Source of the DNA: a virus | Length of the DNA stretch: 64,000 bases | Virus record (IMG/VR): IMGVR_UViG_3300035211_000053 | Span: 1 to 64,000 of that record | Direction: 5' to 3' (one strand) | Shown: positions 560 through 62,014 of the stretch, piece by piece | How the letters are laid out: the number at the start of each line of letters is the position of its first letter | Position numbering within the stretch: the first letter of the stretch is position 1 | Notes under the pieces: generated by a model | Told to the model about the DNA's origin: nothing | The model's database searches: none | Seen by the model: only the letters and a program-made list of their open reading frames with translations | Program-made: the position numbers and the translations under genes

Positions 560-587
560 TTGATTTGTGCGGCAGGAACCGTACACT
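560..587 (+). promoter_or_regulatory. sigma70-like promoter predicting leaderless HNH mRNA
   Basis: TTGATT (560-565), 16 nt, TACACT (582-587), then exactly 6 nt to the ATG at 594, so the A of the start codon falls on the expected +1. An imperfect inverted repeat, TGTGCGG-N6-CCGTACA (567-586), overlaps the spacer and -10. The same arrangement occurs in the promoter at 1195. Confidence 0.6.
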
Positions 588-593
588 GTCATC

Positions 594-1016
594 ATGTTCG
601 ATGGCTTCTGGGACAAAGTCGCAATTGGAGATCCGGATGATTGCTGGGAATGGACCGGGGTCAAGTCCCATGGCTACGGTATTTTTAGTAGGGGCCGACA
701 ACGACGCGCCCACAGGGTAGCCTTCTTCCTTACCCATGGTCGCTGGCCAACCCCGTGTTGCTGCCACGCATGCGACAACCCACCTTGCTGCAACCCATCT
801 CATCTGTGGGAGGGGACGCAGGCGGAGAACATGCTGGACGCTCGAAAGAAGGGGAGAATGCCAACTGCGCAACCGAGGCCAGAACCAACCCGCTCGTTTC
901 GACTATCGAAGCAGCTCCAGGCTCGCTTCCCAGAATATTCCGATTGGCTGAAGGAGAAACGCCATGCGATTCGTCAAAGCAGGCGACAGAACAGCGCGCC
1001 TCGAGTTTCGGCTTAG
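594..1016 (+). CDS. HNH homing-type endonuclease
   Basis: This 140-aa protein begins with a CWEWTG motif, continues with AHRVAFFL and a Cys/His cluster (CHACDNPPCCNP), and ends the domain with HLWEGTQAENMLD. That order is typical of free-standing phage HNH nucleases, in which the CxxC pairs bind zinc and the His is catalytic. The C-terminal third is basic and may bind DNA. The ATG at 594 is preferred over an upstream GTG (567) because the promoter at 560-587 places the transcript start at 594. The end overlaps the next gene by 53 nt. Such genes are usually mobile and may cut genomes of related phages. Confidence 0.85.
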   Translation: MFDGFWDKVAIGDPDDCWEWTGVKSHGYGIFSRGRQRRAHRVAFFLTHGRWPTPCCCHACDNPPCCNPSHLWEGTQAENMLDARKKGRMPTAQPRPEPTRSFRLSKQLQARFPEYSDWLKEKRHAIRQSRRQNSAPRVSA

Positions 1017-1176
1017 GGCCGACGAGCGAGCGGATATCGAACGGGTGGCCCAGATTGAGGATGCATTGTCCGCCAGTGACTGGGTCAGACGCATTGTACT
1101 AGCGGAAACACGCAGGATCCTGGCTGTTGTCGACAAGCAAAACAGGCCCGCGAGTAAAACGACACGTGGTCCCTAA
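964..1176 (+). CDS. small ribbon-helix-helix-like protein
   Basis: This 70-aa protein has the pattern RLEFRLRADERADIERVA...SASDWVRRIVLAETRRIL, which matches a strand followed by two helices as in ribbon-helix-helix DNA-binding proteins or DUF1778-type antitoxins. It starts inside the HNH gene after GGAGAAACGCC, a good ribosome-binding site, so it is probably translated from the same message. No toxin partner is evident next to it. A transcriptional-regulator role is inferred from the fold pattern only. Confidence 0.6.
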   Translation: MRFVKAGDRTARLEFRLRADERADIERVAQIEDALSASDWVRRIVLAETRRILAVVDKQNRPASKTTRGP

Positions 1177-1194
1177 AAAAACGACTGGCCCCTG

Positions 1195-1222
1195 TTGACT
1201 TGTACGGCGTGTGCCGTATACT
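1195..1222 (+). promoter_or_regulatory. sigma70-like promoter with inverted-repeat operator
   Basis: TTGACT (1195-1200), 16 nt, TATACT (1217-1222), and 6 nt to ATG 1229, so the downstream mRNA would be leaderless. The spacer contains a perfect inverted repeat TACGGC-GTGT-GCCGTA (1202-1217), positioned like a repressor operator. The half-site is close to that in the 560 promoter. Confidence 0.65.
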
Positions 1223-1228
1223 CATTTC

Positions 1229-1432
1229 ATGATGACCAGCAAAACCGAGAAGACCCAAACCGCAGCCCGCAAGTACTTCGTTGCCGCCATCCCCGAGGTG
1301 CTGGACCGCCAGGCCCTCGAGAGCCAAATCGTTCGCTACGCCAGCGCCGGCCGCCGGCTGGACCTGGTCGCCGCAGAATGGGACGTGGAGCTGTGGGCGG
1401 TCGAGGCAGTAGCGGCCAGACTGGTCGGGTGA
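1229..1432 (+). CDS. small hypothetical protein
   Basis: A 67-aa product from ATG 1229 (a second ATG follows at 1232). No Shine-Dalgarno is present, but the promoter at 1195-1222 puts the transcript start on this ATG. The sequence is a charged N-terminus followed by a largely helical region ending EAVAARLVG, with no known domain. It is the first gene after an operator-like element, so it may be an early, repressible gene. Function is unknown. Confidence 0.5.
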   Translation: MMTSKTEKTQTAARKYFVAAIPEVLDRQALESQIVRYASAGRRLDLVAAEWDVELWAVEAVAARLVG

Positions 1433-1436
1433 GACA

Positions 1437-1493
1437 CTGGCACGCCCCATGCAATAGCTGAGAGCAGGATCAGCAAGGAGCCAAGACGATGAC
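1437..1493 (+). repeat. direct repeat copy 1, upstream of the 1489 gene
   Basis: About 57 bp starting CTGGCACGCCCCATGCAA and ending across the start codon at 1489 is repeated with few changes at 1955-2012. Each copy covers the untranslated leader, the AGGAG ribosome-binding site and the first codons. It looks like a duplicated translation-initiation module. Confidence 0.75.
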
Positions 1494-1665
1494 CAAGACC
1501 TGGACAGTCACCCTGCACGGCAAAACCCAAACCTATGAGCAAGACGTGCCCGGAGGAAAGGTGTACATAGAGCACACAACGATGTACCGGGATGAGCCTG
1601 TATTTCTGGCTGGGCTGGAAAAGATGCGCGCAGCCGGCGCGGTCATCGTCGAGAGCACACGCTAA
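1489..1665 (+). CDS. small hypothetical protein (58 aa)
   Basis: The ATG at 1489 follows GCAAGGAGCCAAGACG, a strong ribosome-binding site, and runs 58 codons to TAA 1665. The product reads as a compact alpha/beta protein (MTKTWTVTLHGKTQTY, then GGKVYIEHTTMY). It is preceded by repeat copy 1. The family was not recognised; the strong initiation region argues that it is real. Confidence 0.55.
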   Translation: MTKTWTVTLHGKTQTYEQDVPGGKVYIEHTTMYRDEPVFLAGLEKMRAAGAVIVESTR

Positions 1666-1735
1666 CGCCAGCCTCCCCGTCCCGCTCCCGTACAGGTCAC
1701 GCTGTTGGGGGCCTTCGGGCTGTCAGGAGGTTCCA

Positions 1736-1954
1736 ATGGCACTCAAAAAGACCCCAACCACCAGCTACGGACCCAGCGCCCAATTCCACCAGTTCGGATC
1801 CGCTTTGGATTTTTCAGATTTCTTTGCTGACCCGCTGCCGGCCGACCACTACCCGCAGCCCCGGCCTCCCGAGCCCCGCAGCGCAGAGGAGCAGGCAGTC
1901 GACGCTGCATGGGACGCCGAGCAGGACTGCGACGACTGCGTGCGGGAGCGCTGA
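1736..1954 (+). CDS. small acidic, proline-rich hypothetical protein
   Basis: A 72-aa product starting at ATG 1736, seven bases after AGGAGG. It has a basic N-terminus (MALKKTPTTS), an aromatic middle, a Pro-rich stretch and an acidic tail with a CDDC pair. It is probably disordered. It lies between the two direct-repeat copies. No family was recognised. Confidence 0.5.
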   Translation: MALKKTPTTSYGPSAQFHQFGSALDFSDFFADPLPADHYPQPRPPEPRSAEEQAVDAAWDAEQDCDDCVRER

Positions 1955-2012
1955 CTGGCACGCCCCATGCAACAGCTGAGAGCAGGATCAGCAAGGAGAC
2001 CACGACGATGAC
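1955..2012 (+). repeat. direct repeat copy 2, upstream of the 2008 gene
   Basis: Second copy of the 57-bp initiation module at 1437-1493, sharing the CACGCCCCATGCAA, CAGCTGAGAGCAGGATCAG and CAAGGAG blocks. It ends at the ATG at 2008. Confidence 0.75.
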
Positions 2013-2231
2013 GACCTACAGAATCACGAGTCGGACGAGTGGACTTGGGATTCAGACGCAAACCGGAACAACTATCCACACTTTTTCTGCTTCTGTGCAC
2101 TGCAACTTGGCAAGCCCGTGCGGTACCACGGGGAACATTGGTACAATGCCAAGGTCATTGCCGAAATCAAGGACAGCGATATCAGAACCATGCGCTTGGA
2201 CGACTTCATCCGGGCAGGGTTCTCGTACTGA
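2008..2231 (+). CDS. small protein with a reading-frame break
   Basis: The repeat-borne ribosome-binding site leads to ATG 2008, but the protein-like frame downstream is a different one. It covers roughly 2028-2231 and includes DEWTWDSDANRNNYP, VRYHGEHWYNAKVIAEIKD and a C-terminal FIRAGFSY. That frame has no start codon between the TGA at 1977 and the coding part. Either one base is missing near 2020-2028, or a -1 slip occurs, for example on the T5 run at 2082-2086. The product would be about 74 aa, of unknown function. Confidence 0.4.
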
Positions 2232-2294
2232 CGCCCTCCGCCCCGTCCCGCCCCCTCGTCTCCTGGCCCGGGGGCTTTTCGGGTAGGAGAACAC

Positions 2295-2570
2295 ATGACC
2301 ACCTACAAAGCCTACTACGTCACCAAGTACGCGCTATCACGTGGGATCTTTAAGCAAGCCCTGGAGCCCGACGATGAGGGCTATGCCACGAGGCGAGAGA
2401 CCGGTGGGTACGCCTACTACAAAATCGGCCGCGACTGTTTCGAGTCTCGAGACGAGGCCATCCAAGATGCCAAGTTCCGGGCGGTTGCCCAACTGAAGAG
2501 TCTGGACAGGCAGCGCACCAAGCTGGAAGCGTTGGCATACGAGCCGAAGTGGGCAGGAGACCCGCCATGA
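2295..2570 (+). CDS. hypothetical protein (91 aa)
   Basis: The ATG at 2295 follows TAGGAGAACAC, a good ribosome-binding site. The product has many tyrosines near the N-terminus (MTTYKAYYVTKYAL), a YAYYKIGRDCF segment and a charged C-terminal helix. Its first residues resemble the MTTY start of the 2008 gene. The stop overlaps the next start (ATGA). No family was recognised; it looks like a typical small phage early protein. Confidence 0.6.
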   Translation: MTTYKAYYVTKYALSRGIFKQALEPDDEGYATRRETGGYAYYKIGRDCFESRDEAIQDAKFRAVAQLKSLDRQRTKLEALAYEPKWAGDPP

Positions 2571-2773
2571 TCCGAATCCGCGTACCAAGACACACATCGC
2601 CCGAAGCCATCGCGGCTCTGGGCCTGGCATTCGACCAAGTCGAGATCGAGCCTCACGACGGCCCGCTCGAGGCCGAGGGCGACGACGAGACTACGGAGGC
2701 CGATGCGCTTGCAGTGGCGCAGGTCTTCCTGGACTCGATACCGCCTAGGCCCATGACAGACGATGCTGCCTGA
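2567..2773 (+). CDS. small acidic hypothetical protein
   Basis: A 68-aa product with an ATG overlapping the previous stop (ATGA at 2567-2570), which implies translational coupling. A short alpha/beta start (MIRIRVPRHTSPEAIAALGL) is followed by an acidic stretch (EAEGDDETTEADALA). No family was recognised. The stop is followed directly by the next start (TGATG). Confidence 0.6.
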   Translation: MIRIRVPRHTSPEAIAALGLAFDQVEIEPHDGPLEAEGDDETTEADALAVAQVFLDSIPPRPMTDDAA

Positions 2774-2970
2774 TGGCCTACCACCGCCGCCCAGAGCGCT
2801 ACCAGGCCTGCCCACACACGAGATACGCTACCGTGTGGGTGAGCGGCCAGATGCGCGAGCTCGAGTGCATCCACCGGCCAGGCTGCCGGCACAGGTGGAT
2901 CGTCATCGGGCCACTGCCACTAGCTTGGACCATAAAACAGCAGATCAAGCACGCGCTAGGGAGACGCTAA
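2773..2970 (+). CDS. small cysteine-containing hypothetical protein
   Basis: A 65-aa basic protein starting at ATG 2773, coupled to the upstream stop. It has three cysteines and two nearby histidines (CPHTRYATV, then CIHRPGCRHRW), a pattern that could hold a metal ion. It ends in a basic helix. Function is unknown. It is the last gene of the 2295-2970 coupled trio. Confidence 0.6.
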   Translation: MAYHRRPERYQACPHTRYATVWVSGQMRELECIHRPGCRHRWIVIGPLPLAWTIKQQIKHALGRR

Positions 2971-2994
2971 CACCGGCCGGCCGCCACCTGCCTC

Positions 2995-3044
2995 TTGACT
3001 AGCCGGACAACTGGGTGCACACTTGGCCCATGAGCACAAGCTGA
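2995..3044 (+). promoter_or_regulatory. promoter followed by a four-codon leaderless ORF
   Basis: TTGACT (2995-3000), 17 nt, CACACT (3018-3023), then 6 nt to ATG 3030. That ATG opens only four codons (ATG AGC ACA AGC) before TGA 3042-3044. The next gene has its own ribosome-binding site 25-30 nt further on. The mini-ORF may be a translated leader that affects the downstream gene. Confidence 0.5.
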
Positions 3045-3076
3045 CGGGCCGCCCTGGTGGCCCAGGAGACATGACC

Positions 3077-3259
3077 ATGACCCAGGCCACAGACGAAAGA
3101 CAGGAAGACAGGCGAGCGGCGGCCGTGCGGCGCCTCCAGGGGGCCGTAGACGTCCTTCTGGCAGTCGGGACGCTCTGGGCCATCGAAGCCACGGCGGCCT
3201 TCTGTGAGCGTGCTGTGGGGCTGCGCGAGGCGCTTTTCGAGCGTGGGCGGGCGGCGTGA
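3077..3259 (+). CDS. small helical hypothetical protein
   Basis: A 60-aa product. Two in-frame ATGs (3071, 3077) follow CCAGGAGAC; 3077 has the better spacing. An N-terminal charged part (QATDERQEDRRAAAVRRLQ) is followed by a mildly hydrophobic helix (LLAVGTLWAIEATAAF). It overlaps the next gene by GTGA. No family was recognised. Confidence 0.5.
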   Translation: MTQATDERQEDRRAAAVRRLQGAVDVLLAVGTLWAIEATAAFCERAVGLREALFERGRAA

Positions 3260-3549: not shown

Positions 3550-3560
3550 TCCCCGAGGCC

Positions 3561-3588
3561 TTAACCGGCCCAGCGGCCCCGCCGTACT
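3561..3588 (+). promoter_or_regulatory. weak promoter with leaderless spacing
   Basis: TTAACC (3561-3566), 16 nt, CGTACT (3583-3588), then 6 nt to ATG 3595. The boxes are poorer than at the other sites, but the geometry is the same. It could drive the short ORF at 3595 or an RNA that continues into the structured region after 3777. Confidence 0.4.
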
Positions 3589-3594
3589 ACAGTC

Positions 3595-3777
3595 ATGAGC
3601 CACGCAATGACCCCGCCGCCGTCCCTGAGCCTTGAGGGGTACGCCCGCGCCCTCGGCGCCGACGAACCACGCATCGTGGCGCCCAGAGCCATTGTCATCG
3701 TCAGTGTGCAGTCTCGCGCCGGGCGCGTTCCCGTGCCGCGCTCGCCGGTCCCGGACGGCAGGACGGTGCCGGAGTGA
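3595..3777 (+). CDS. doubtful 60-aa ORF at the start of the structured region
   Basis: The ORF starts where the promoter at 3561 predicts +1. The product is Ala/Pro/Val-rich and low in complexity toward its end, with no family resemblance. The DNA also contains hairpins: GGCGCC blocks at 3655 and 3679 enclose CCACG-CAT-CGTGG. It may be the 5' part of a structured RNA and not a gene. Confidence 0.3.
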   Translation: MSHAMTPPPSLSLEGYARALGADEPRIVAPRAIVIVSVQSRAGRVPVPRSPVPDGRTVPE

Positions 3778-4379: not shown

Positions 4380-4400
4380 GAGGAAGAGCCGTGCTTCAAG

Positions 4401-36636: not shown

Positions 36637-36645
36637 TGCTATTCT
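36637..36645 (+). promoter_or_regulatory. extended -10 promoter of the embedded HTH gene
   Basis: TGC-TATTCT (36637-36645) then 6 nt to ATG 36652, the leaderless geometry seen at the early promoters. There is no clear -35; the TG dinucleotide can compensate. It lies within the start region of the opposite-strand 51-aa ORF. Confidence 0.45.
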
Positions 36646-36651
36646 CCCTAG

Positions 36652-36957
36652 ATGCATGGATACCTGTTGTCCGAGCTGTCCCGCAGAAGCCGACTGGCCA
36701 AACGTACTGTGCTGCAATGGGCACAGGACCCACTTTCTCTCTCGCTCAGAAGTCGAGAGGCTTTATACAGAGCCGGAGAAACGCTTGGACTAGAAGAGTC
36801 TGCTAGAGCGCAACTGCCTCAATTCATTGGCGCCAGGGGAAGGGCCGTGGAGCTCGCTGGAATCCTGAGACATGTCCGAAAGATCGAACGGTCTGCATGC
36901 AAGGACGCCCTGAAAGAGATCGAGTACGCCCGGCGTCTTGGTAGGCATGTCCCGTAA
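36652..36957 (+). CDS. embedded plus-strand HTH regulator (LacI-type helix-turn-helix)
   Basis: 101 aa, antisense to the surrounding head operon. Residues 5-45 (LLSELSRRSRLAKRTVLQWA, then QDPLSLSLRSREALYRAGET, LGLEES) follow the LacI-type HTH pattern, in which the second helix is followed by a hinge-like helix. The remaining 55 residues are helical and basic. No Shine-Dalgarno; the promoter predicts a leaderless mRNA. The stop (36957) abuts the stop of the minor head gene (36958). It could be a regulator expressed in the prophage. Confidence 0.6.
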   Translation: MHGYLLSELSRRSRLAKRTVLQWAQDPLSLSLRSREALYRAGETLGLEESARAQLPQFIGARGRAVELAGILRHVRKIERSACKDALKEIEYARRLGRHVP

Positions 36958-37650: not shown

Positions 37651-39346
37651 GCTTCCTCGTCATTTCGTGGAGCGCCGCAGCCTCTTGACGTTGGAGCTCA
37701 GCTGCCTTCTGCTCGGCCGCCTCGCGCTCTTCGTCGATGGCATCGAGCTCGGCCTGCGTGTCGTCGACTCCGTAGTCTGGGGCCACCTTCTCGACGCCGG
37801 TCTTGTGCTGGATGAGCCGAGCCTCGACGGCCTTGATCGTGGAATCGACCTCGGCGGAGATTTCTTGCTGCGATGGGTCGAAGAATGCCCCCCATTTCGG
37901 GACAATTCTGTGCGGCTGCCACTCACCATCGACCATGAACGATGTTAGCAACGGCGCAACGCCTTCGGTTCCCGGCACGTTGACAGTCCCGCCGGTCTCC
38001 ACGGCCACGGCAGTCATGCGCATCATCATGGAGATGAGGGCCTTGAGCCCTCGGGGCCACCATGTATGCCGGTACTCCTGGACCAGTGCGATCAGCGGGG
38101 CATGGGCCAGCGCCAGGAACTTGGCCGACATGTCGGCGCCGATCGTAACTCGGCCCACTGTGTCGCTCATGCTGGTCAGCACGACACCCATCGACTCGAG
38201 AACCCGCGAGCGGATGTCGTCGACGTGCTTGGTCGCCACCTCGAAGGCTTTGCCGCTGGTCTCCAGCAGCTGGACGTTGACGTCCTTGCCCTGGTAGGTC
38301 CAGACGTATTCAGGCCCGGTCTTGCGCTTTGTGCCGACGATGCCGTGAGGCGATGTGCCGCTGTACCCACCGGGCCCCGACCGCGTCTCGGCGCCTGGGC
38401 CGTCTCCGTCCTCGACTCCTGTCTCTACGGGTTGAGGAGCCCCGAGATAAACGACACCCTGGTGACGCCGCGACAGCACCATGTCCAGAGCCTCCAGGTC
38501 GCCCTCGAGGCCATCGTACAGGCTGACGCCGTCAATGCCCGTAGCTTCCTCTGACTCGTTTCTGACCCAGATTACAGGACAGAAGTTCAGACCATGAGGC
38601 GCCGAGTCAGGACTGCCCCACGTCAGGGGTTGTCCGTCGGTCCGCGCTTCAACGTCCTGGTAGATGTGGACGTTGGTCGTGTCCCACTCGCGGCGAAACA
38701 CGTACCGCGCTCGCTTCGCGCGCCCCTGATCGTCGGTGACTTCCTTGTCGAAGGCATACGACCAGACCAGCTTTTCGACAGGATTTTCTGGGTCGTTGTC
38801 GACGAACTGTGGATAGCAATCCTGTGGGCGTGGAATGGTGATCCGGAAATCACCACGCTTCAGCTCAAGGATCGCGACACCAGTACGACGGGAGATCCCC
38901 ATGCGCGCCAGTGCTCGAGCATTGGACTTCAGGTTGGCGCACTCGACGAGGTCATCGAGCCACGCCTCGAGCTGTTTGGCCTGCTCCTTGGTGAGCTCGC
39001 CCGGGGCTGGAACGAACGACTGAGGCTTCTTCTCGCCATCATCGTCGGTTTCGCTGTCGTCAGAGTCTGGCTCATCCGCGGGGACGGTCAACTTCGGGAA
39101 CCGCTTGTCACCGAACAGGAAACGAACGACCTGATTGGTCGCCGCAGCAGCAAGCTTGTAGCGGATACATGGCTTGCGTTTGCGGAGCGGTACCGGCTCC
39201 TGCCCTTCCAGATGCACGCCAGACCACCAGTCCGGGCGGCCCTCGTACTGTTTGCCGTCGAAGATCTTGTCGAGATAGTCGATCTCCCGCCACCGGGACA
39301 TCGTCGGCAGAAACTCTGGCTTGGCAAATGGGTCGAATGCGGGCAT
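37508..39346 (-). CDS. portal protein
   Basis: 612 aa, directly after the large terminase gene. CIRYKLAAAATNQVVRFLFG (about 60-80), RMGISRRTGVAILELKRG, HGLNFCPVIWVRNESEEATG and SLYDGLEGDLEALDMVLSRR are characteristic of SPP1/gp6-type portals; the ring-forming helices follow. The last 50 residues are Gly/Asn/Gln-rich and disordered, and are encoded by the region shared with the minor head gene. Dodecamer at the unique vertex, channel for DNA. Confidence 0.8.
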   Translation of the reverse strand: MPAFDPFAKPEFLPTMSRWREIDYLDKIFDGKQYEGRPDWWSGVHLEGQEPVPLRKRKPCIRYKLAAAATNQVVRFLFGDKRFPKLTVPADEPDSDDSETDDDGEKKPQSFVPAPGELTKEQAKQLEAWLDDLVECANLKSNARALARMGISRRTGVAILELKRGDFRITIPRPQDCYPQFVDNDPENPVEKLVWSYAFDKEVTDDQGRAKRARYVFRREWDTTNVHIYQDVEARTDGQPLTWGSPDSAPHGLNFCPVIWVRNESEEATGIDGVSLYDGLEGDLEALDMVLSRRHQGVVYLGAPQPVETGVEDGDGPGAETRSGPGGYSGTSPHGIVGTKRKTGPEYVWTYQGKDVNVQLLETSGKAFEVATKHVDDIRSRVLESMGVVLTSMSDTVGRVTIGADMSAKFLALAHAPLIALVQEYRHTWWPRGLKALISMMMRMTAVAVETGGTVNVPGTEGVAPLLTSFMVDGEWQPHRIVPKWGAFFDPSQQEISAEVDSTIKAVEARLIQHKTGVEKVAPDYGVDDTQAELDAIDEEREAAEQKAAELQRQEAAALHEMTRKLGQADDSQGARSDMGARSGGNASAGGKPTGRAGGNDTGSGQPQPQGR

Positions 39347-42333: not shown

Positions 42334-43144
42334 CCACCAGCTCCTTGTGCATTCGTGTCGCCTCGGCCAGTGCCTGGGCCATCAGGGCCATGATCCCTGG
42401 CACAGTGGACGTTAGGCTGGCCTCAAGGGCAACACGTGGCTGACGCCCGCGGCAGAGTTTCCGCCCAGCCTCCGTCAATGGGTAGAGCGCCATGATTGCC
42501 CTGCCCTGCGCTGCCCAACGTAATCCCTCGTCACAGTGCATGGCCTGGATAATCACTGACCCACCCGGCAAGCGCTCTTCGAGCCTGGCGATCCGCCGGC
42601 TGATGCGGGCAGCACGCTGCATGGTCGAGTCGTCGACGACGGCGCCGACGCTGTGGGCCTCGGCCCCCGACTCGAAAGCAGGCGTCGACGTCACGTAACC
42701 GGCGCCCCCGCAGCGGTAGCAGGTCTCGCCATATTCGTCTTCTCCAAAGCCTTTGCACTTGTAGCAGACCTTGTAGCCGCTGCGGGTCGGGGTTCTGCGC
42801 GCTGGCCTGATCTCGAGGTGACCAGTTCCTTTGCAGGTCCGGCATTCATTCGTCAGATAGTGCTTGCCTGACTTGTCCTTCGGATCCGTCCAGTAGACCG
42901 ATCGATGGCGTTCCCCTGTCTTGTCTTCCCAGGTTTCCACGTGGCAATTCATGCCCCACAGTATTCCGTCGGTGCAATCCTCATTCGGACACGGTTTGGC
43001 CTTCAGCGAGAACATGCGCAGATGATCCAGCATTGGGCCACAGGTCGACCGCGCAAATCTGCAGGCGCCTGGACCGAAGTACCAGTTCAGTTCTATCTGG
43101 TCACTCAGCGGTAACACCAATGACGCCAGCACGAGCGCGTTCAT
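42311..43144 (-). CDS. DnaJ-type zinc-finger protein
   Basis: 277 aa. Three zinc modules: CPNEDCTDGILWGMNC (about 52-67), CRTCKGTGHLE (about 101-111), and the pair CYKCKGFGEDEYGETCYRC (126-144) with GGAGYV. The C-x2-C-x-G-x-G knuckles are as in DnaJ. The C-terminal half is helical and contains MHCDEGLRWAAQGRA. No J domain. Such phage proteins may bind nucleic acid or serve in late-gene control; that is inference. Confidence 0.6.
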   Translation of the reverse strand: MNALVLASLVLPLSDQIELNWYFGPGACRFARSTCGPMLDHLRMFSLKAKPCPNEDCTDGILWGMNCHVETWEDKTGERHRSVYWTDPKDKSGKHYLTNECRTCKGTGHLEIRPARRTPTRSGYKVCYKCKGFGEDEYGETCYRCGGAGYVTSTPAFESGAEAHSVGAVVDDSTMQRAARISRRIARLEERLPGGSVIIQAMHCDEGLRWAAQGRAIMALYPLTEAGRKLCRGRQPRVALEASLTSTVPGIMALMAQALAEATRMHKELVDAWNATK

Positions 43145-43332
43145 CCGAATAGCCTTTCGTCTGGCAACTCAGGACGTGGCATCCAGCGCGTCACCCGTTC
43201 CGGGTACCGTGGGATCCACCTCACGCCGTTCCATGAGCGCACTTCGATCCAGCGATGGCCGAAGTTTTCGACAACCACCAGGTAGTAGTCCTCGGCCATG
43301 GGCGACGTGGTGATAGCGGTCCAGTTGCTCAT
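43141..43332 (-). CDS. DUF551-like small protein
   Basis: 63 aa with W-T-A-I-T...P...D.YYLVVVENF, then EVRSWNGVRWIPRYPERVTR and WMPRPELPDE. The final V-T-x-W-M-P-x-P-E-x-P motif is the signature of DUF551 phage proteins. Coupled by ATGA. Function unknown. Confidence 0.7.
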   Translation of the reverse strand: MSNWTAITTSPMAEDYYLVVVENFGHRWIEVRSWNGVRWIPRYPERVTRWMPRPELPDERLFG

Positions 43333-51328: not shown

Positions 51329-51843
51329 CAGACGCAAATCCTTCGCAGAGATCCGAATGGGAACAGCACCATCGGAGGACTTACGCGATCGCCGGTTTTC
51401 GCGTTCAGCCCGTCCCAGATCCGTTCCGATGATCTGATCCTAGACAACTCTCCCCAAAAAACTCCAGTTGGCTCTTCGCGTTCGTGCATGAAGAACAAAT
51501 ACACGGGGCGAGACGTCAAGATCGACACACGCGCATACTGATCCAGCAGCCTGCGTTCGCAACCCGTCTCAAGAGTCTCGCTCACCCCGTCAGTGCGAAC
51601 CCATCTCGTCTTCCGTTTCACCTCTGCGAAGAACTGCTCGTCTTTCCAACAAAGCAGGTCAGGAAGCGTTAGCCCCTCCAGTGACCCATTTACCGAAGCC
51701 CACGCCGAAGGCGCAGATTGCCGGATAAACTGGTACATTGGCAGGACAACATTGCCGCGCCGGATAAGCATGGCTCCAATCTTGTGCTCACCCTCCTCCC
51801 CGAAGCGCAAAGCGTCCTCGAAGTTCACGCTTCGAGCCCCCAT
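51328..51843 (-). CDS. PD-(D/E)XK nuclease-like protein
   Basis: 171 aa from ATG 51843; GTG 51828 (GTGA overlap) and ATG 51852 are alternatives. GLTLPDLLCWKDEQFFAEVK (about 55-75) gives the PD-x(n)-ExK motif of the restriction-nuclease fold. RRLLDQYARVSILTSRPVYL is the following helix and strand. Could resolve recombination intermediates or act on replicating DNA. Located between the methyltransferase and the replisome organiser. Confidence 0.6.
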   Translation of the reverse strand: MGARSVNFEDALRFGEEGEHKIGAMLIRRGNVVLPMYQFIRQSAPSAWASVNGSLEGLTLPDLLCWKDEQFFAEVKRKTRWVRTDGVSETLETGCERRLLDQYARVSILTSRPVYLFFMHEREEPTGVFWGELSRIRSSERIWDGLNAKTGDRVSPPMVLFPFGSLRRICV

Positions 51844-52958
51844 GTGTCCCATCCATCTGGGACATCGCGAGCAAACAGCTCTACCCTAGGAAGCCTTGGA
51901 TACATCGCCTCGATCGCAGCTCGAACCTCGGTTGGCTTGGCGCTATGCTCTGACCTAGCCGAAGCACAAGTGAAGACGCTACCAGGCCTGGCCTTGGGCG
52001 GAGGCGTTGGAATGTCGCCACGGACCCCAACGAGAATCAGCTCGTGGTTCTGACGAAAGTAGTACCCCATGCCCGTCCCTGGCTTTTGCCAGACCGCAGA
52101 CGTCTTGTAGGTGAAGCCCCATGCTTTGAGAACTTCTAGCGCACCAGGGAGCAGCGGGGATGTTGCCCACAGGAACAGAACGGCGTCATTTGCGGCCGGA
52201 GGACGCAGGGCCTTGATCTCGTCCAGGGTCATGGTCGGGTAGTTGTTCTCGACCTTGCGATTGTCGGTGGTGAAACCGCCATCATATCTCCATGGCGGGT
52301 CCGCGTAGACTACGTTGTATAGGCGATCCGGCATGGGCTTGGCCGACTCTTTGGTGGCCAAAGCCTCCACTCTTCGTTCGCGGTTCTCGTCCTGCTTCTT
52401 CTGCTTCAGTTGCTTAGCGATCTCCTTGGCTTTTATGGGGTTCTCCGCGGCCTTTCTCTGAGCTGCCTGCGAAGCGTTGGCGGCAATGACGCTAGCCGCA
52501 CTCACCGCAAGCTTCCCCTGGTCGACGGCGGCGATCAGCTCGGGCGCTCCCTTCTCCAGGACCACGCGGGCACGTTTCACGCTTGGCGTGCTGACGTTCA
52601 AAAGGCCAGATGCATCACCCTGGGAAACTGGATCAATTGATCCAGTTTTTTTTGGCCTTCCCTCACCGAGGTTCGCCACCCTAGCGGCCACCATGGCGCG
52701 CTGGCTCTCGTCAAGGTGACGACGGCGAAGGTTCAGTGAGATGACTTCTCCGAGCGGGTCCTTCCCGCGATACTCCCTGAACAGAGGCTCCACATGAGCG
52801 GATTTGCACGCGCGAAAACGGTTGCGTCCATCAAGGATCTTGCCTTCGAACGTGACAATCTTCTCGCGAAGGCCACGCTCGCCGATGTCCTTGACTAAAT
52901 CGTCGAACTCCTGCCCCTCGAGCAGAGGAAACAGACCAGCCAATCTATGAAATTGCAC
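51825..52958 (-). CDS. ParB-like/MT-A70 adenine methyltransferase fusion
   Basis: 377 aa from GTG 52958 after GAGGTGACGC. Residues 1-110 are a ParB/Srx-type domain (GKILDGRNRFRACKS, then NLRRRHLDESQRAMVAARVA), 120-200 a helical linker. Residues 212-377 are MT-A70: VVYADPPW (218-223, catalytic DPPW), FLWATSPLLPGALEVLKAWG and NHELILVGVRG. It methylates adenine in DNA and may protect phage DNA. The ParB part probably guides DNA binding. Confidence 0.85.
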   Translation of the reverse strand: MQFHRLAGLFPLLEGQEFDDLVKDIGERGLREKIVTFEGKILDGRNRFRACKSAHVEPLFREYRGKDPLGEVISLNLRRRHLDESQRAMVAARVANLGEGRPKKTGSIDPVSQGDASGLLNVSTPSVKRARVVLEKGAPELIAAVDQGKLAVSAASVIAANASQAAQRKAAENPIKAKEIAKQLKQKKQDENRERRVEALATKESAKPMPDRLYNVVYADPPWRYDGGFTTDNRKVENNYPTMTLDEIKALRPPAANDAVLFLWATSPLLPGALEVLKAWGFTYKTSAVWQKPGTGMGYYFRQNHELILVGVRGDIPTPPPKARPGSVFTCASARSEHSAKPTEVRAAIEAMYPRLPRVELFARDVPDGWDTWGLEA

Positions 52959-52961: not shown

Positions 52962-53084
52962 TCACCTCACGTCCCCCCGAAGGGCCACAGCGATGGGTGC
53001 TGCACGACGACAGAAGCCGACGATCCCATCGTTGTGGACCCGCGGGGAGGCGCGAAGCCTGGCTTCAATCGAATCGTGCAGCAT
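52962..53084 (-). CDS. 40-aa leader ORF at a leaderless promoter
   Basis: ATG 53084 lies 7 nt after the -10 of the promoter at 53092-53120, with no ribosome-binding site. The product is MLHDSIEARLRASPRVHNDG followed by IVGFCRRAAPIAVALRGDVR. The stop is 3 nt before the methyltransferase GTG, and the end of the ORF supplies its ribosome-binding site. It may be a small protein or serve to couple translation. Confidence 0.45.
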   Translation of the reverse strand: MLHDSIEARLRASPRVHNDGIVGFCRRAAPIAVALRGDVR

Positions 53085-53091
53085 CCCCGCA

Positions 53092-53120
53092 AGTCTGCCC
53101 GAGGCCGGGACGGGTGTCAA
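53092..53120 (-). promoter_or_regulatory. minus-strand promoter of the replication operon
   Basis: On the minus strand TTGACA (53120-53115), 17 nt, CAGACT (53097-53092), then 7 nt to ATG 53084. A perfect -35 and standard spacing. It would start the methyltransferase-replication transcript and give a leaderless first ORF. Confidence 0.6.
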
Positions 53121-54659: not shown

Positions 54660-54961
54660 CGCTCTATCCCCAGTTCTCGGATCCTGGCCGCGCTCAGGCG
54701 CCAAAGCAGGTACGCACCAAACTTCGCTGTCTCGCTCTCGAGGATCCCCTCTTGCTCGAGCAGTTCCAGGTTGGATCGCACGTAGCCCACGGCATACCCA
54801 ACCGACCTGGCAACGTCCTCAGTTGCAAACGCCTCCCCCTCCAGCCAGGGCTCAGTCTGGATCAGGGTCAGCACAGCGCGCCGCACATTGCTATCATTAG
54901 GGCAGTACGGCGGCGGGTACATGATGCCGCGCAACTCCAGCTGAGCCGGCCCGTCAGTCAT
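54656..54961 (-). CDS. winged-helix-like small protein
   Basis: 101 aa. VRRAVLTLIQTEPWLEGEAF, ATEDVARSVGYAVGYVRSNL, ELLEQEGILESETAKFGAYL form a plausible winged helix. The start overlaps the methyltransferase stop by 8 nt (ATGACTGA). Probably DNA-binding. Confidence 0.55.
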   Translation of the reverse strand: MTDGPAQLELRGIMYPPPYCPNDSNVRRAVLTLIQTEPWLEGEAFATEDVARSVGYAVGYVRSNLELLEQEGILESETAKFGAYLLWRLSAARIRELGIER

Positions 54962-56525
54962 CGAACAGGCTCCTTTGCTTCATCTCCGCTGGCGTCTCGG
55001 TCTTGGGTGGTTTCCACGATGATGCGTGATGCAGCCTAGCGCGCGCGATCGTGCAGTAGGGGAATTCATCGGTGTCGTACATCTCGATTCCAATGAAGCG
55101 GATACGCTCGAGCATGCAGGCGACGCCGGTTGTACCGCTCCCAGCGAAGGGGTCGAGGCAGATGCCACCAGGGCGGGTCACGAGGCGGACTAGCCAGCGC
55201 ATGAGCTCAACGCCCTTCACGGTCGCGTGGCTGTTGCGTGCGCCGCCGCTCCGCCCAGCTCCGGTCCTCGGGAAATCGAGTGCCGCCGTTCCATCCTTGC
55301 GCCGCGTTGCCTGTCCGCGTGTCTTCTTGGGCAGATGCTCGCAACCCGTGTCCCGCTCACGTCTAGACGGTTTGGCCTGATAGAGGAATGGGGCGATGTC
55401 GTCGAGCGGACTGGCGCGGAATTGAGGGAAGAAGCGGGAGGCGAAACCAACATCTCCCGCGACAGCTGCATTGTTTCCATGCTTCCTTCCCCTACCATAG
55501 CAGACCAAATGGGCCTCAGTATCGGGACATGCTGCATTAGATCCACCATTTCTTAAAAAGCCGCTTTGCCCATCCAATTCCCGAATGGGACACCCCTCCG
55601 CGCATCGCTCTCCGCACCCATCGGAATGGCTCAGCACCACGTTGGTCGGCCAGCGCCCGGCGGGGTGACATTGGATCCCGGCACCCGGAGGCGCAGCTAT
55701 CTTCTCCTCGGTAGGCTTCGCGCTGTGCCCGCTTGCGTGCCACGATGGCGGGCGCTCCGTCCAGTCCGTTGACACGCGGCAGGCGTCGATGTGTAGGCAC
55801 CCGCAGCCATGGGTCAGCACGTTGTCGACCAGCGTGCCCTTGAACGGCTTGCGAGCAAGAAACCAAAACTCAGCGCTTGGCTTCAGTCCCGTCCCATACC
55901 CGTCCCATGCTCGCGACTCGTCACAGCCACCAGCCGTCACCGCTAGCTCGATCGGCTCGGAGTTCTCGGCACCGACCGAGTAGGTACCGCCCTTGTCCTT
56001 AGTAGACGTCCCTGCGTTGCCGCCTGCCTGGTAGGTGTGCAGGACGCGGCGTTGAGACGTGGTGCCCATCTTGCGGTCGATACCCTTGGAAACATTCAGA
56101 CTTTTCGGCATACCCGTCCCGAACAGGTGTGACACGACGTCGCGTACCTCAAACCCGGCCTGCTCAATGGCGAGGCCTGTCCAGTGCGATTTGCGGGGCA
56201 GCGCCCAGACGAAAGCGTGCCCTCCGGGCTTCAGGGCGCGGAGGCATTCGGCCATGACCAGCGTGAGCCACTGCACCCACATCGCACGCCCGCCCCTGTC
56301 GGAATCCCAATCATTCCCCATAAATCGGATCGCAGACGGTGGGTCCGTCACAATCGAGTCAACCGAGCAGTCCGGTATCAAACGCAACGCTTGCAGGCAA
56401 TCGTCGTGCAGCAAAGCCCATCTCTGCTCACCACGCAGCACGCGGGCCAAGTCAGCTTCCTGGCAGGCCCGCTCGAACCGCCAGAGATCGCGGTCGACGA
56501 GACTCAACTCTATGGAAGCTGGCAT
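54954..56525 (-). CDS. DNA methyltransferase (N4-cytosine/N6-adenine type)
   Basis: 523 aa from ATG 56525. Motif IV is DPPS (61-64; usually DPPY or DPPW), in SIVTDPPSAIRFMGNDWDSD. Motif I DPFAGSGTTG (458-467) is near the C-terminus, giving the beta-class order. A long middle insertion (about 180-420) carries many Cys/His, probably the target-recognition domain. It likely protects phage DNA from restriction. Coupled to the SLOG gene by ATGA. Confidence 0.85.
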   Translation of the reverse strand: MPASIELSLVDRDLWRFERACQEADLARVLRGEQRWALLHDDCLQALRLIPDCSVDSIVTDPPSAIRFMGNDWDSDRGGRAMWVQWLTLVMAECLRALKPGGHAFVWALPRKSHWTGLAIEQAGFEVRDVVSHLFGTGMPKSLNVSKGIDRKMGTTSQRRVLHTYQAGGNAGTSTKDKGGTYSVGAENSEPIELAVTAGGCDESRAWDGYGTGLKPSAEFWFLARKPFKGTLVDNVLTHGCGCLHIDACRVSTDWTERPPSWHASGHSAKPTEEKIAAPPGAGIQCHPAGRWPTNVVLSHSDGCGERCAEGCPIRELDGQSGFLRNGGSNAACPDTEAHLVCYGRGRKHGNNAAVAGDVGFASRFFPQFRASPLDDIAPFLYQAKPSRRERDTGCEHLPKKTRGQATRRKDGTAALDFPRTGAGRSGGARNSHATVKGVELMRWLVRLVTRPGGICLDPFAGSGTTGVACMLERIRFIGIEMYDTDEFPYCTIARARLHHASSWKPPKTETPAEMKQRSLFDD

Positions 56526-56929
56526 CACCTGACCCTCACCTCTTCCACCTCGAGCCCAACAGCCCGGAGTTTTCTGGCGCAATCGTGGGTGCCGCGGCTC
56601 TGTGAATCCGGGAAGGCAAAGCCCTTGCCATTCAGGCCTTCCTGAAGCAGCGCCTTTGCAGAGCCTGCCATGCTGGAGTTGCGGACCGGGCCCGCGCGCT
56701 TGCCTAACAGATCCCAAATAGCGTGGTGGACGTCGATGCAGACCCCTTCCTCATCGGCCAACTCTCTCGCGGCCCTATCGACTCCGGTGCGACAATCGCC
56801 CACGATGAGCAGCCCACCAGCCTTCACCTGTTGTAGAGCAGGACGGATGAGATCACGAAGCTCTGGTTGCCAACCCAGCGACGACCCTCGCCGCGTCCCC
56901 GTGATGACGATGAAGTCGAGATCATGCAT
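56525..56929 (-). CDS. SLOG (YpsA/DprA-related, DUF2493-like) nucleotide-binding protein
   Basis: 134 aa. VITGTRRGSSLGWQPELRDL, LLIVGDCRTGVDRAARELAD, IWDLLGKRAGPVRNSSMAGS form a Rossmann-like fold with a G-T-R-x-G loop, a G-x-x-x-G-V-D motif and A-G-x-x-R-N. These are typical of SLOG proteins, thought to bind NAD- or ADP-ribose-type ligands. Its role in phages is unclear. Confidence 0.7.
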   Translation of the reverse strand: MHDLDFIVITGTRRGSSLGWQPELRDLIRPALQQVKAGGLLIVGDCRTGVDRAARELADEEGVCIDVHHAIWDLLGKRAGPVRNSSMAGSAKALLQEGLNGKGFAFPDSQSRGTHDCARKLRAVGLEVEEVRVR

Positions 56930-56938
56930 GGTCTTTCC

Positions 56939-59670: not shown

Positions 59671-59923
59671 CGTCAGTCTCCTCGTCGTCTCCGTAGTCGC
59701 TTTCGTGGCGCGCCCGCTCTTTGCGCTCAACCAGCCAATCCAGAAGTATAGCAATGGCTACGTAAGGCCACAGCAGCGTGCACCCTAACGCAACGGGCAC
59801 CCGTCCCTCCTTGGGCAGACCATTGTGGATCAACCGTTTCCACTTCCACGCAACCATGCAAACGCCAATTAGCCACCAGACCAAAAACGTTGCGTCAAAG
59901 GACAAATACCATTTGTTGCTCAT
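59663..59923 (-). CDS. two-span membrane protein
   Basis: 86 aa from ATG 59923 (ATGA). Spans FLVWWLIGVCMVAWKW and VALGCTLLWPYVAIAILLDW, then an acidic C-terminus (DYGDDEETDDG). No family was recognised. It may affect the host membrane early in infection. Confidence 0.6.
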   Translation of the reverse strand: MSNKWYLSFDATFLVWWLIGVCMVAWKWKRLIHNGLPKEGRVPVALGCTLLWPYVAIAILLDWLVERKERARHESDYGDDEETDDG

Positions 59924-60273
59924 TCGTCGGTCTCCTTCAGGCAGGCGGCGAGCAGCTCGGGGGGCAATGCTTTGACAGATGCTGACAGCATTTCTATGTC
60001 GAACGTTGTGTTTGGATCGACGTCTCGGATCCAATTGACGTCGTCATCGACAAAGGCCGAGACCTTCCTGACCAGCTTCTGCAGCGGCTCCGGAATGGCG
60101 GGGCGCATGAGGGTGTCCCACGCGGCCCAAGCTGCCTCTAATGTGGGATCCCATGCAGATGATGCCCCGCAATCGCACACGATTCTGCACCAGTTAGCAT
60201 ATGCGAGCGAGTTCTCGAAAACAGGAGCAGCATGTGCTCCCCCACACACCCGGCACTTCGCGTGGTCAGTCAT
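59920..60273 (-). CDS. Lar-like restriction alleviation/zinc protein
   Basis: 117 aa from ATG 60273. CRVCGGAHAAPVFENSLAYA then NWCRIVCDCGASSAWDPTLE and AAWAAWDTL. The two zinc knuckles followed by E-A-x-x-A-W are the pattern of Lar-type proteins, some of which relieve host type I restriction. The rest is a helical tail. Assignment by pattern. Confidence 0.6.
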   Translation of the reverse strand: MTDHAKCRVCGGAHAAPVFENSLAYANWCRIVCDCGASSAWDPTLEAAWAAWDTLMRPAIPEPLQKLVRKVSAFVDDDVNWIRDVDPNTTFDIEMLSASVKALPPELLAACLKETDE

Positions 60274-60692
60274 TGTTGGGTCCTCCTGTTGTGCTCCGCC
60301 CGGGAGCGCCGCGGGCGGACGACCGCATCGAACAGATTCTCCAGATCGATGTCCCAATCCGCATCAGGTTCTGTGCTGATCGGCCGCGACTCGGAGAGCT
60401 GGACCCTGTGGCAAAGCAGGCTGCGCACACCCTCCCACCATTGGTCCTGGGTTGGTTCACTACCCTTGAAGTAAGGAAGCTCCCTATTGTCGCACCACTG
60501 TCTGATCTTCTTCATGGTGACGTCGACCAGCGCGTAGTCCGTCTTTGTAGTCCCCTTGGGCGACTGCTTCTGAGCGACGACGCGGAAGCCGAACTGCTGT
60601 CGAGATTCGCTCCACAGAACGACACCAATGGGCACCGCAAGATCCCGGAAATCGTCTAGAACGAACGAAAGAACGGCGTACCTAGAGGACAT
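60270..60692 (-). CDS. hypothetical protein, DUF3037-like start
   Basis: 140 aa from ATG 60692. SSRYAVLSFVLDDFRDLAVP, IGVVLWSESRQQFGFRVV recalls the N-terminal strands of DUF3037 proteins (pattern Y-S-V-L-x-F...V-N-V-G-V-V-L). The remainder is helical with WWEGVRSLLCHRVQLSESRP. Function unknown. Confidence 0.5.
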   Translation of the reverse strand: MSSRYAVLSFVLDDFRDLAVPIGVVLWSESRQQFGFRVVAQKQSPKGTTKTDYALVDVTMKKIRQWCDNRELPYFKGSEPTQDQWWEGVRSLLCHRVQLSESRPISTEPDADWDIDLENLFDAVVRPRRSRAEHNRRTQQ

Positions 60693-61059
60693 GACCGCCC
60701 CTCGCTGCAGTCTCCATATCGCGCCAGTCGTCCACGCGAACGATCTCCTCGGCTTCGTCGGGACCAGGCACCTCGCGGTAGTCGAAGCCGATAGCCTCGC
60801 ACTCGAGCAACTGCTCCGCCAACTCGCCGGGGTACCATCCACCTGGGCAGTACCAGGAGCGGATACGCGCGCAGGGCAGGCAGGTCTTGCACCGCTCAAC
60901 TTCCCCATCGTAGCCACAGGTGTCGACGCGGTACCGGGTGCCAGGTCGGATGATTTCGTGGCACTCACAGCATTCGTGGGGTTTGCGCGCCACCCGTTCC
61001 TCAACGCAACTGAAGTCACACTGCTCTTCGCAGTCGCAGGCGATGATGGTCATCAGCAT
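60682..61059 (-). CDS. cysteine-rich zinc-binding protein
   Basis: 125 aa; ATG 61059 or 61053. About twelve cysteines: CDCEEQCDFSC, CCECHEII, CKTCLPCARIRSWYC. The spacing suggests two or three zinc sites. The C-terminus is acidic and helical (ELAEQLLECEAIGFDYREVP). Probably a nucleic-acid- or protein-binding early protein. Confidence 0.6.
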   Translation of the reverse strand: MLMTIIACDCEEQCDFSCVEERVARKPHECCECHEIIRPGTRYRVDTCGYDGEVERCKTCLPCARIRSWYCPGGWYPGELAEQLLECEAIGFDYREVPGPDEAEEIVRVDDWRDMETAARGGHVL

Positions 61060-61283
61060 CTCCTCAGGGTCTTCGTGGACCCGTCAGGCTTCTGGAAAAC
61101 CACAGTCCCCCCAGCCTCCCAGTGCTTGCGGCAAGCTTTCAGCACACCGCGGGCGACGGCGTCGTCGGCGCGCTCAGGCCCCCCGATGTCGCGCCATAAT
61201 AGTCGCACCAGATACCACACGAGGTAGCAGCCCGCACCAAGCCCGAGCAGTCGCCAAGCCCAGCAGTAGATCTCAAGGTACAT
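61053..61283 (-). CDS. single-span membrane protein
   Basis: 76 aa. N-terminal span YCWAWRLLGLGAGCYLVWYL followed by a charged soluble part (GGPERADDAVARGVLKACRK). It overlaps the upstream ORF. No family was recognised. Confidence 0.55.
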   Translation of the reverse strand: MYLEIYCWAWRLLGLGAGCYLVWYLVRLLWRDIGGPERADDAVARGVLKACRKHWEAGGTVVFQKPDGSTKTLRRC

Positions 61284-61464
61284 CAGCGGCTCCTTCCGCC
61301 TCCTGGCGCTGCACGGCGACGAGCCCCAACCGTATCACCTCGAGCTCGACAGACCTACGTGCCCGGTCGACGTCGGCACCGGTCCGTGCGGCCCGCGTCT
61401 CGGCCAACTGCCGCAGCAGTTCGTCGTGGACGAACGTCAGCCGCAGCATGGGGCCGTCACTCAC
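61273..61464 (-). CDS. small helical protein downstream of the repressor
   Basis: 63 aa, GTGA-type overlap with the repressor stop. LRLTFVHDELLRQLAETRAA, RTGADVDRARRSVELEVIRL. A helical, possibly dimeric protein. It is co-transcribed with the repressor and could be a regulatory partner. Confidence 0.5.
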   Translation of the reverse strand: MSDGPMLRLTFVHDELLRQLAETRAARTGADVDRARRSVELEVIRLGLVAVQRQEAEGAADVP

Positions 61465-61676
61465 CGGCCCACCTCAGGCCCGATACCGGTCAGAAGCCAC
61501 ACCAGACGACACCCAAGCGCTTGGGCCAACAATGCCGCCCGCTTGGTGGTGGTGTCAGCCCCCAGCTCCAGCTGCGAGAGCCATTGTCGGCTGGCCCCGA
61601 GTTGAGTTGCTACCTCTTCCTGCGTCAGGCCTAGGCGTTCTCTGCGCCGTCTGACCCGCGAACCGATTGATTCCAT
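61461..61676 (-). CDS. XRE-family repressor-like regulator
   Basis: 71 aa from ATG 61676. RVRRRRERLGLTQEEVATQL and GASRQWLSQLELGADTTTKR form a canonical HTH_3 (recognition helix about 29-37). Short, with no C-terminal protease domain, so it resembles small Cro/CI-type regulators. The promoter places +1 on or one base before the start codon, and a plus-strand promoter faces it. Confidence 0.8.
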   Translation of the reverse strand: MESIGSRVRRRRERLGLTQEEVATQLGASRQWLSQLELGADTTTKRAALLAQALGCRLVWLLTGIGPEVGR

Positions 61677-61683
61677 GACCAGG

Positions 61684-61712
61684 ACTATACCCGCCCAGAG
61701 GGAGCTGTGCAA
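61684..61712 (-). promoter_or_regulatory. repressor promoter (leaderless)
   Basis: On the minus strand TTGCAC (61712-61707), 17 nt, TATAGT (61689-61684), then 7 nt to ATG 61676. This resembles the lambda cI leaderless arrangement. It lies back to back with the plus-strand promoter at 61719. Confidence 0.65.
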
Positions 61713-61718
61713 GTTTTC

Positions 61719-61747
61719 TTGACAAGCCACCTGGACCGATTCATACT
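61719..61747 (+). promoter_or_regulatory. early right promoter, divergent from the repressor
   Basis: TTGACA (61719-61724), 17 nt, CATACT (61742-61747), 6 nt to ATG 61754. A perfect -35. The transcript reads the small-gene operon to the right edge. The 77 nt between the two ATGs is the likely switch region. Confidence 0.65.
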
Positions 61748-61753
61748 CGGATC

Positions 61754-62014
61754 ATGCACAGCTCACCCAGCGCAAATAGCCACGCCTGGGCATCGGCGAT
61801 ACCGCTGCGCTGGCACGCAGGTCAGGACGCGCCGGCTGTGCCGACCAACAACCACGGGGAGTACAATGGCCACAGAACAAAAGTACTATGCAACATGCAA
61901 CGGGGTCCGATACACGGGCCCACTGACGTTGGCAGAGGCCCAGCGTTACGTCGAAATGCGGCGACACGACAGGAAAAACCCGCGATTGACCGGCGAACGC
62001 AAAGATCATCCTGA
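61754..62014 (+). CDS. doubtful leaderless ORF overlapping the next gene
   Basis: The ATG lies exactly at the predicted +1 of the 61719 promoter and opens 86 codons, but most of it overlaps the better candidate at 61866 in another frame. The product is His/Pro/Ser-rich and not domain-like. It could be a short translated leader and not a stable protein. Confidence 0.25.
   Translation: MHSSPSANSHAWASAIPLRWHAGQDAPAVPTNNHGEYNGHRTKVLCNMQRGPIHGPTDVGRGPALRRNAATRQEKPAIDRRTQRSS

Follow-up and report, generated by a model that had tools for sequence, protein, structure and literature searches.

Predicted leaderless genes and AUG-first leaders behind promoters placed 6-7 nucleotides from an ATG in an environmental contractile-tailed phage

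Leaderless mRNAs, which begin at the A of their AUG, are recognised by the whole 70S ribosome and respond distinctly to initiation factors and initiator tRNA (PMC9031893). In phages, leaderless transcripts have been predicted for the divergent promoters PL1 and PR2 of cluster O mycobacteriophages, for PL2, which serves a leftward gene in their structural operon (PMC4351075), and for gene 90 of mycobacteriophage Adephagia (PMC11373665), and rapid amplification of cDNA ends (RACE) placed the starts of the PY54 cI and cro mRNAs at the AUG, lambda cI being leaderless too (PMC4488713). In bacteria, leaderless genes of Actinobacteria carry TANNNT some 12 bp ahead of their start codons (PMC3160421), and nearly one quarter of mycobacterial transcripts are leaderless, with small open reading frames (ORFs) at transcript 5' ends (PMC4633059). 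Escherichia coli further has 5'-uAUG mRNAs, in which 70S ribosomes bind the 5' AUG and 30S subunits bind a later start led by a Shine-Dalgarno (SD) sequence; changing the 5' AUG can lower the output of the downstream gene, that of ptrB to less than 8%, and has little effect or causes a rise in other genes (PMC4965119). Here, we analyse a 64,000-base window (bases 1-64,000) of the 66,480-base virus record IMGVR_UViG_3300035211_000053 and argue that at least six sigma-70-type promoters, each with a -10 hexamer fixed 6-7 nucleotides (nt) from an ATG, probably produce leaderless mRNAs, in which the AUG either starts a gene or opens a leader ahead of one.

An earlier note on this DNA had listed eight such sites, six on the plus strand with a hexamer followed by exactly 6 nt and an ATG and two on the minus strand, before the repressor and the replication operon, with 7 nt, and all coordinates and spacings proved exact (Table 1). 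It had described most of them as carrying TTGACA/TTGACT-like -35 boxes, and TTGAY is present in five of the eight, with spacers of 16-17 nt, the exceptions being the repressor and the sites at 3595 and 36652. Counting SD matches of at least 4 nt, we found one at a single site (3030), in line with the reported lack of SD sequences, and such matches are indeed usual elsewhere, at 64 of the 105 called starts compared with 22% of 5000 random positions. Promoters were scored at 132,800 positions with a -35/-10 matrix that was fixed in advance and not derived from these sites, using a main cut-off of 10 or more (20 positions in the record) and a looser one of 8, and counts were compared with dinucleotide shuffles (1500 for the record, 1000 for the relative G001 introduced below and 60 for the looser cut-off). 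Six strong sites rank 1st, 2nd, 4th, 8th, 16th and 19th in the record. At the main cut-off, 6 of the 20 promoters have an ATG 6-7 nt downstream, compared with a shuffle mean of 0.70 and a maximum of 4, none of the 1500 shuffles reaching 6. By distance after these promoters, ATGs number one at 5 nt, four at 6 nt, two at 7 nt and none at 8 nt, with about 0.15 per distance farther out. The profile put forward in the earlier note (TTGAY, a 16-18 nt spacer, NNNACT, 6 nt and ATG) is likewise commoner than in shuffled sequence, with four matches compared with a mean of 0.08 and a maximum of 2 (1500 shuffles). At the looser cut-off ATGs at 6-7 nt outnumber those of the shuffles only slightly (7 vs 3.7), and in G001 four ATGs lie at 6-7 nt compared with 0.72, a count that 7 of 1000 shuffles attain.

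The window has genes for a tail sheath, baseplate, portal, terminase and major head protein, a set that assigns it to a contractile-tailed phage. Three relatives, all environmental contigs, were compared for promoters: G001 (IMGVR_UViG_3300031949_000022; 72,396 bases), whose tail sheath is 88% identical to that of the window, and G293 (IMGVR_UViG_3300025146_000015; 60,672 bases) and G292 (IMGVR_UViG_3300037484_000944; 24,621 bases), which were both retrieved through the RNA element of the rightward operon and have many genes in common with G001 and some with the window; 35 loci from a scan with MT-A70 were left out. Additional scans for relatives used tail sheath, portal and terminase, and the portal scan gave none. 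The closest annotated phage record found, MW202476, has a terminase 49.6% identical and gives no host, further listed matches being at most 27% identical.

Across the window phage, G001, G292 and G293, the best-scoring rightward promoter in the 60 nt scanned lies 6, 7, 6 and 6 nt before the ATG, with the same downstream RNA element in all four and differing sequence upstream. The best-scoring repressor-side promoter in the stretch scanned lies 7, 8, 7 and 7 nt before the ATG in the window phage, G292, G293 and G001. The repressors of the window phage and G292 are homologous (36%), and so, in a comparison made apart from that pair, are the repressor-side protein of G001, of 82 amino acids (aa), and its G293 counterpart (44%). 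Divergent repressor and rightward promoters of leaderless type are thus predicted in the window (61676, minus; 61754, plus), and a counterpart of each in G001, G292 and G293. The third promoter (3030) is spaced at 6, 7 and 7 nt in the window phage, G293 and G292, the G292 copy being truncated by the contig end; as the G293 and G292 copies were found by a pattern that demands 6-7 nt, their similarity is independent evidence and their spacing is not. G001 additionally has strong leaderless-type sites before two lone plus-strand genes among minus-strand genes. That the repressor and early promoters are kept in this predicted leaderless class in relatives with different operators suggests selection on the translation of the switch and not on transcription alone. 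As regards these operators, the repressor-side and rightward promoters of G001 (about 42617-42675 and 43245-43290) each overlap a dyad, TTACTAC..GTAGTAA and TTACCAC..GTGGTAA, and the two look like a shared operator; the window phage carries CTTGTCAAG/CAAGAAAACTTG in place of dyads of this type.

Leaderless initiation is well supported by the sequence because the spacing exceeds chance, an SD is absent at seven of the eight sites and the spacing is kept in relatives, and in this respect the earlier note's proposal of leaderless initiation for independently promoted early genes stands. Its reference to early genes is too simple, since three of the AUGs open leader ORFs, the gene at 36652 is not an early one and the site at 3595 is weak. 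Three genes appear to be leaderless in the strict sense, with an AUG that would start a credible protein: that of the repressor (61676), that of the HNH endonuclease (594) and the 67-aa one (1229); the coding score of the 1229 gene is above all 2000 control stretches. The spacer of its promoter contains a dyad, TACGGC-4-GCCGTA, that is partly common to the 594 promoter. In a wider, imperfect form, GTRCGGC..CCGTAYAC, the dyad lies in both spacers (567-586 and 1202-1221, plus strand) and nowhere else in the record, and could serve a common regulator as its operator. The ORF at 36652 stands alone opposite the structural operon; it has no family match and no significant match at the corresponding place in four contigs. 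The site at 3595 is probably due to chance.

Table 1. Promoter sites, genes, leader ORFs and RNA features of the window, with two genes of the relative G001
Feature	Position	Strand	Details
-10 TACACT	582-587	+	6 nt, ATG 594; -35 TTGATT, spacer 16
-10 TATACT	1217-1222	+	6 nt, ATG 1229; -35 TTGACT, spacer 16
-10 CACACT	3018-3023	+	6 nt, ATG 3030; -35 TTGACT, spacer 17
-10 CGTACT	3583-3588	+	6 nt, ATG 3595; -35 TTAACC, spacer 16
-10 TATTCT	36640-36645	+	6 nt, ATG 36652; no convincing -35
-10 CATACT	61742-61747	+	6 nt, ATG 61754; -35 TTGACA, spacer 17
-10 TATAGT	61689-61684	-	7 nt, ATG 61676; -35 TTGCAC, spacer 17
-10 CAGACT	53097-53092	-	7 nt, ATG 53084; -35 TTGACA, spacer 17
HNH endonuclease gene	594-1016	+	140 aa; family match; promoter 560-596, second best in record
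67-aa gene	1229-1432	+	promoter 1195-1231, best in record
Promoter TTGACT-17-CACACT-6-ATG	2995-3032	+	
Minigene M-S-T-S-stop	3030-3044	+	four codons; predicted leaderless
G+C-rich hairpin	3046-3063	+	between minigene stop and next SD; predicted fold; G293 has one too
SD-led gene	3071-3259	+	62 aa; downstream of minigene
CGTACT-6-ATG before 60-aa ORF	3583-3777	+	best 4% of positions
Lone 101-aa ORF, TATTCT-6-ATG	36640-36957	+	opposite structural operon; weak member
40-codon leader ORF	52962-53084	-	ends just before ParB-like/MT-A70 gene (51825-52955)
Promoter TTGACA-17-CAGACT-7-ATG	53082-53120	-	ahead of ParB-like/MT-A70, then primase and helicase genes
Helix-turn-helix (HTH) repressor, HTH_3	61461-61676	-	71 aa; predicted leaderless
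Repressor promoter TTGCAC-17-TATAGT-7-ATG	61674-61712	-	
Rightward operon promoter TTGACA-17-CATACT-6-ATG	61719-61756	+	divergent from repressor
Open frame of leaderless AUG	61754-62014	+	86 codons, through the RNA element
Conserved structured RNA	61756-61841	+	86 nt; outer stem closing two hairpin arms; predicted fold
SD-led gene	61866-62063	+	65 aa; first gene proper of rightward operon
G001 133-aa ORF	22506	+	strong leaderless-type promoter
G001 174-aa ORF	67500	+	strong leaderless-type promoter; HEXXH motif seen by eye

At 3030, 61754 and 53084, the AUG opens an ORF of 4, 86 and 40 codons, respectively, ahead of another gene. Assuming co-transcription, a 5' AUG followed by an SD-led gene occurs at 3030/3071 and at 61754/61866; the 40-codon leader ORF at 53084 has no family match. 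The leader at 3030 has a homologue in G293, consisting of M-H-T-R-stop, a hairpin, an SD and an 82-aa gene, whose product is identical to the 62-aa protein of the window at 19 of 39 positions (E 4e-06, single comparison). The alignment of the two leaders beats all 2000 of 2000 single-base shuffles, the similarity being owed in part to the promoter motifs. The four-codon ORF could nevertheless be a chance product of an AUG at +1, with 3071 an ordinary SD-led gene behind a 41-nt leader: it is not unusual for a stop to follow after a few codons, complete copies of the minigene are known from these two phages only, and no such promoter or minigene precedes the partial homologue of the G293 82-aa gene in G001. 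The homology of the leaders speaks against chance, as both have four codons and keep a stop, TGA in the window and TAG in G293, despite two base changes, and we regard a chance origin as a real possibility that falls somewhat short of probable.

In the rightward leader, the AUG coincides with a predicted structured RNA, whose first base is the G of the AUG in the window phage and lies 12 to 15 nt farther on in G001, G292 and G293. The SD-led 65-aa protein that follows shows 60% identity with a G293 frame across 57 residues. Between the window phage and G001, 30 of the 86 RNA positions differ, and the fold distance is 21 compared with a mean of 50.4 for random mutants carrying the same substitutions, of which none in 1000 is as close, these mutants ignoring conserved blocks and constraints on placement. 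In a model-fitted alignment, 5 of 23 pairs are changed on both sides and still paired, as in none of 500 shuffles, and in a free alignment 6 of 26 pairs are changed on both sides. Three results limit the case for a conserved fold: the covariation represents a single divergence, of one divergent copy from three near-identical ones; a gapless alignment breaks 4 of the 7 pairs of hairpin 1 in the window phage, which a one-base shift restores; and the single RNAs fold no more stably than their shuffles. The RNA has no match among Rfam families, and searches of 21 sources for further copies returned only the four known places, the next best at E 0.3. Two looser pattern scans for additional relatives gave 19 and 16 stretches, of which three each are the known copies of G001, G292 and G293 and the rest appear unrelated by eye.

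Conservation of the 61754 frame as a protein was ruled out, as 13 nonsynonymous codons and one synonymous codon separate the window phage from G001. With the 28 differences in the frame spread evenly over the codon positions (11, 7 and 10), with five paired changes in the RNA, and with the frame overlapping the 61866 gene out of register in the window phage, the AUG itself could be incidental and the functional unit a structured 5' RNA, such as a put-like antiterminator or a stabiliser, in which the frame is untranslated. In each of the four phages, nonetheless, 6-7 nt separate the -10 from the ATG, the distance of the ATG to a shared AGCTCACCC block (3, 18, 15 and 18 nt) is a multiple of 3 in each, and no in-frame stop was seen by eye inside the element. 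An untranslated frame is a serious alternative, to which we give rather less than even weight. Put RNAs are structured, lie near the 5' ends of early transcripts and make RNA polymerase ignore terminators; the RNA described here would fit such an antiterminator by position and predicted structure. Possible functions of the RNA thus include a ribosome-controlled attenuator, a put-like antiterminator and a stabiliser.

In the mechanism that we favour, transcription would start at the A of the AUG and yield a leaderless mRNA, on which 70S ribosomes would start at the 5' AUG, as known from established work on leaderless mRNA. This start would be put to two uses. The first would be the translation of true leaderless genes, namely those of the HTH repressor, the HNH endonuclease and the 67-aa protein, together with the two lone genes of G001. 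The second would be in AUG-first leaders: at 3030 a minigene followed by the hairpin, the SD and the gene, at 61754 a leaderless frame that crosses a conserved three-way-junction RNA ahead of the SD-led first gene, and at 53084 the 40-codon ORF ending against the next gene. Here the likely role of a ribosome loaded at the 5' end would be to protect the transcript, to couple to the next start or to alter the fold of the leader. More speculatively, and in our view rather improbably, the AUG-first leaders could form a ribosome-sensing switch, in which a 70S ribosome that meets the three-way-junction RNA, or stops after four codons before a hairpin, would decide between keeping, elongating or translating the early transcript and its loss; the RNA would then represent a new family of phage RNAs.

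A number of observations weigh against leaderless initiation as read here. The RNA start at the A of the ATG, although the most likely one, is predicted from sequence, and the promoter matrix was built from an actinobacterial consensus. Taken alone, the sites at 3595 (a -10 without TA, best 4% of positions) and 36652 (no recognisable -35, best 0.13% of positions) are weak, and scores are low for the promoters of G293 (5.7 and 6.2). With regard to codon signals, 12% of control stretches score as high as the 594 frame, 12% as high as the 61754 frame, and 7% match the 36652 frame. The 360 starts called in the four phages show, taken together, no excess at 6-8 nt (17 vs about 23 if evenly spread), and among called starts with a promoter of at least 8.5 within 45 nt, 1 of 14 lies at 6-8 nt. 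These starts, like the 105 counted for SD matches, came from a crude, coding-based caller blind to SD sequences, and the test is partly blind because this caller takes only two of the eight ATGs (1229 and 3595). The 6-7 nt spacing is thus a trait of a handful of promoters and not of the gene set at large. In a panel given the same test, Firecracker and Catdawg (first 12 kb of each) and Portcullis (first 50 kb) had two such ATGs apiece, phiC31 and contigs L051 and L052 one each, and Taj, Conboy, Mu, lambda and contigs L049, L053 and L054 none; in MW202476, a more distant relative, none of the 21 strong sites is followed by an ATG at 6-7 nt. The test has false negatives, since it missed the leaderless lambda cI. 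The panel does not show the trait to be general.

Ordinary short 5' leaders, with ATGs brought close by short intergenic gaps and a spacing that is coincidental or reflects a preference for A at +1, would suit a compact phage genome, predicted 5' ends and the lack of an excess over all called starts, but they are very unlikely, as the ATG count peaks at 6-7 nt and then falls off, shuffles do not reproduce it, two promoters keep a distance of 6-8 nt in all four phages despite differing promoter sequences, and a preference for A leaves the subsequent TG unexplained. With leaderless initiation preferred, the annotation of start sites stands to gain, given how few of these ATGs a coding-based, SD-blind caller took.

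An actinobacterial host is not claimed, since methyltransferase and DUF5131 matches point there and other genes do not. The methyltransferase matches, among 627 phage records, are mostly from phages of Mycobacterium (358) and Arthrobacter (64), and those of DUF5131, among 147 records, mostly from phages of Gordonia (49) and Mycobacterium (47). Public records contain a disproportionate share of phages of Mycobacterium, Arthrobacter and Gordonia. For the primase there are 91 matching records of mixed origin (Serratia 19, Mycobacterium 12, Gordonia 10 and others), for the HNH protein 68, also mixed, with Klebsiella and Escherichia foremost, and for the GH25 lysin one uncultured record, while a G001 early protein has no match. 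One bacterial match, a contig in a Byssovorax metagenome-assembled genome (MAG), is the only one among 282 genomes of that phylum. In this MAG the leaderless pattern occurs 103 times compared with 7 for the reversed pattern, a difference that codon bias could cause and that is not used as evidence. The DNA methyltransferase of the window (54954-56717, minus strand) aligns with mycobacteriophage methylases, a group in which homing insertions have been described (PMC11855218).

Further sites of similar appearance were noted in passing. Near the end of the record and beyond the window (about 66408-66480), a strong promoter, TTGCCT-18-TATACT, is followed by an ATG-TGA 5 nt on and a GTG 7 nt on, the GTG frame running off the contig. 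In phiC31, a 613-codon frame begins with an ATG at 38423 (plus strand), 7 nt after a strong promoter and 24 nt ahead of position 38447, where the integrase is annotated to start. In G293, a weak site (8.0) at about 16863 (minus strand) lies 7 nt before a 114-codon frame whose beginning looks lipoprotein-like by eye, as does that of the 174-aa frame of G001.

Among described systems, cluster O served as a positive control, in which the divergent pair was found at 7 and 8 nt and a third gene at 7 nt in both Firecracker and Catdawg. These phages belong to another family, and in the window phage the divergent promoter serves an HTH repressor, with a conserved RNA at the AUG of the rightward mRNA. 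PY54 and lambda are enterobacterial phages in which the leaderless start is experimental, whereas it is predicted in the window phage. Gordonia phage Portcullis (MT639651) shows the same arrangement by the same scan, with an annotated immunity repressor (39579, minus strand) and a divergent HTH gene (39673, plus strand) that both have a -10 at 7 nt from the ATG; we found no publication describing them as leaderless. As in the leaderless genes of Actinobacteria, the window sites have a -10-like box about 12 bp before the start, seven of the eight lacking an SD, and the count at the six strong sites is attained by none of the 1500 shuffles; the actinobacterial and mycobacterial sets consist of cellular genes, whereas the window belongs to a phage whose host may not be actinobacterial. 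We found no phage leaderless minigene or structured RNA at a leaderless AUG in the open-access literature searched, most subscription journals being outside the scope of the search. The promoters are thus of a known kind, and the AUG-first structured leader is a variant that we did not find described. The four-codon minigene and the conserved RNA at the AUG offer short, defined targets for asking why the arrangement is kept. The leaders at 3030 and 61754 share the arrangement of the E. coli 5'-uAUG mRNAs, and that at 53084 is similar; unlike leaders of the ptrB type, the ORF at 3030 is a four-codon minigene with a homologue, and the ORF at 61754 runs through a conserved RNA fold.

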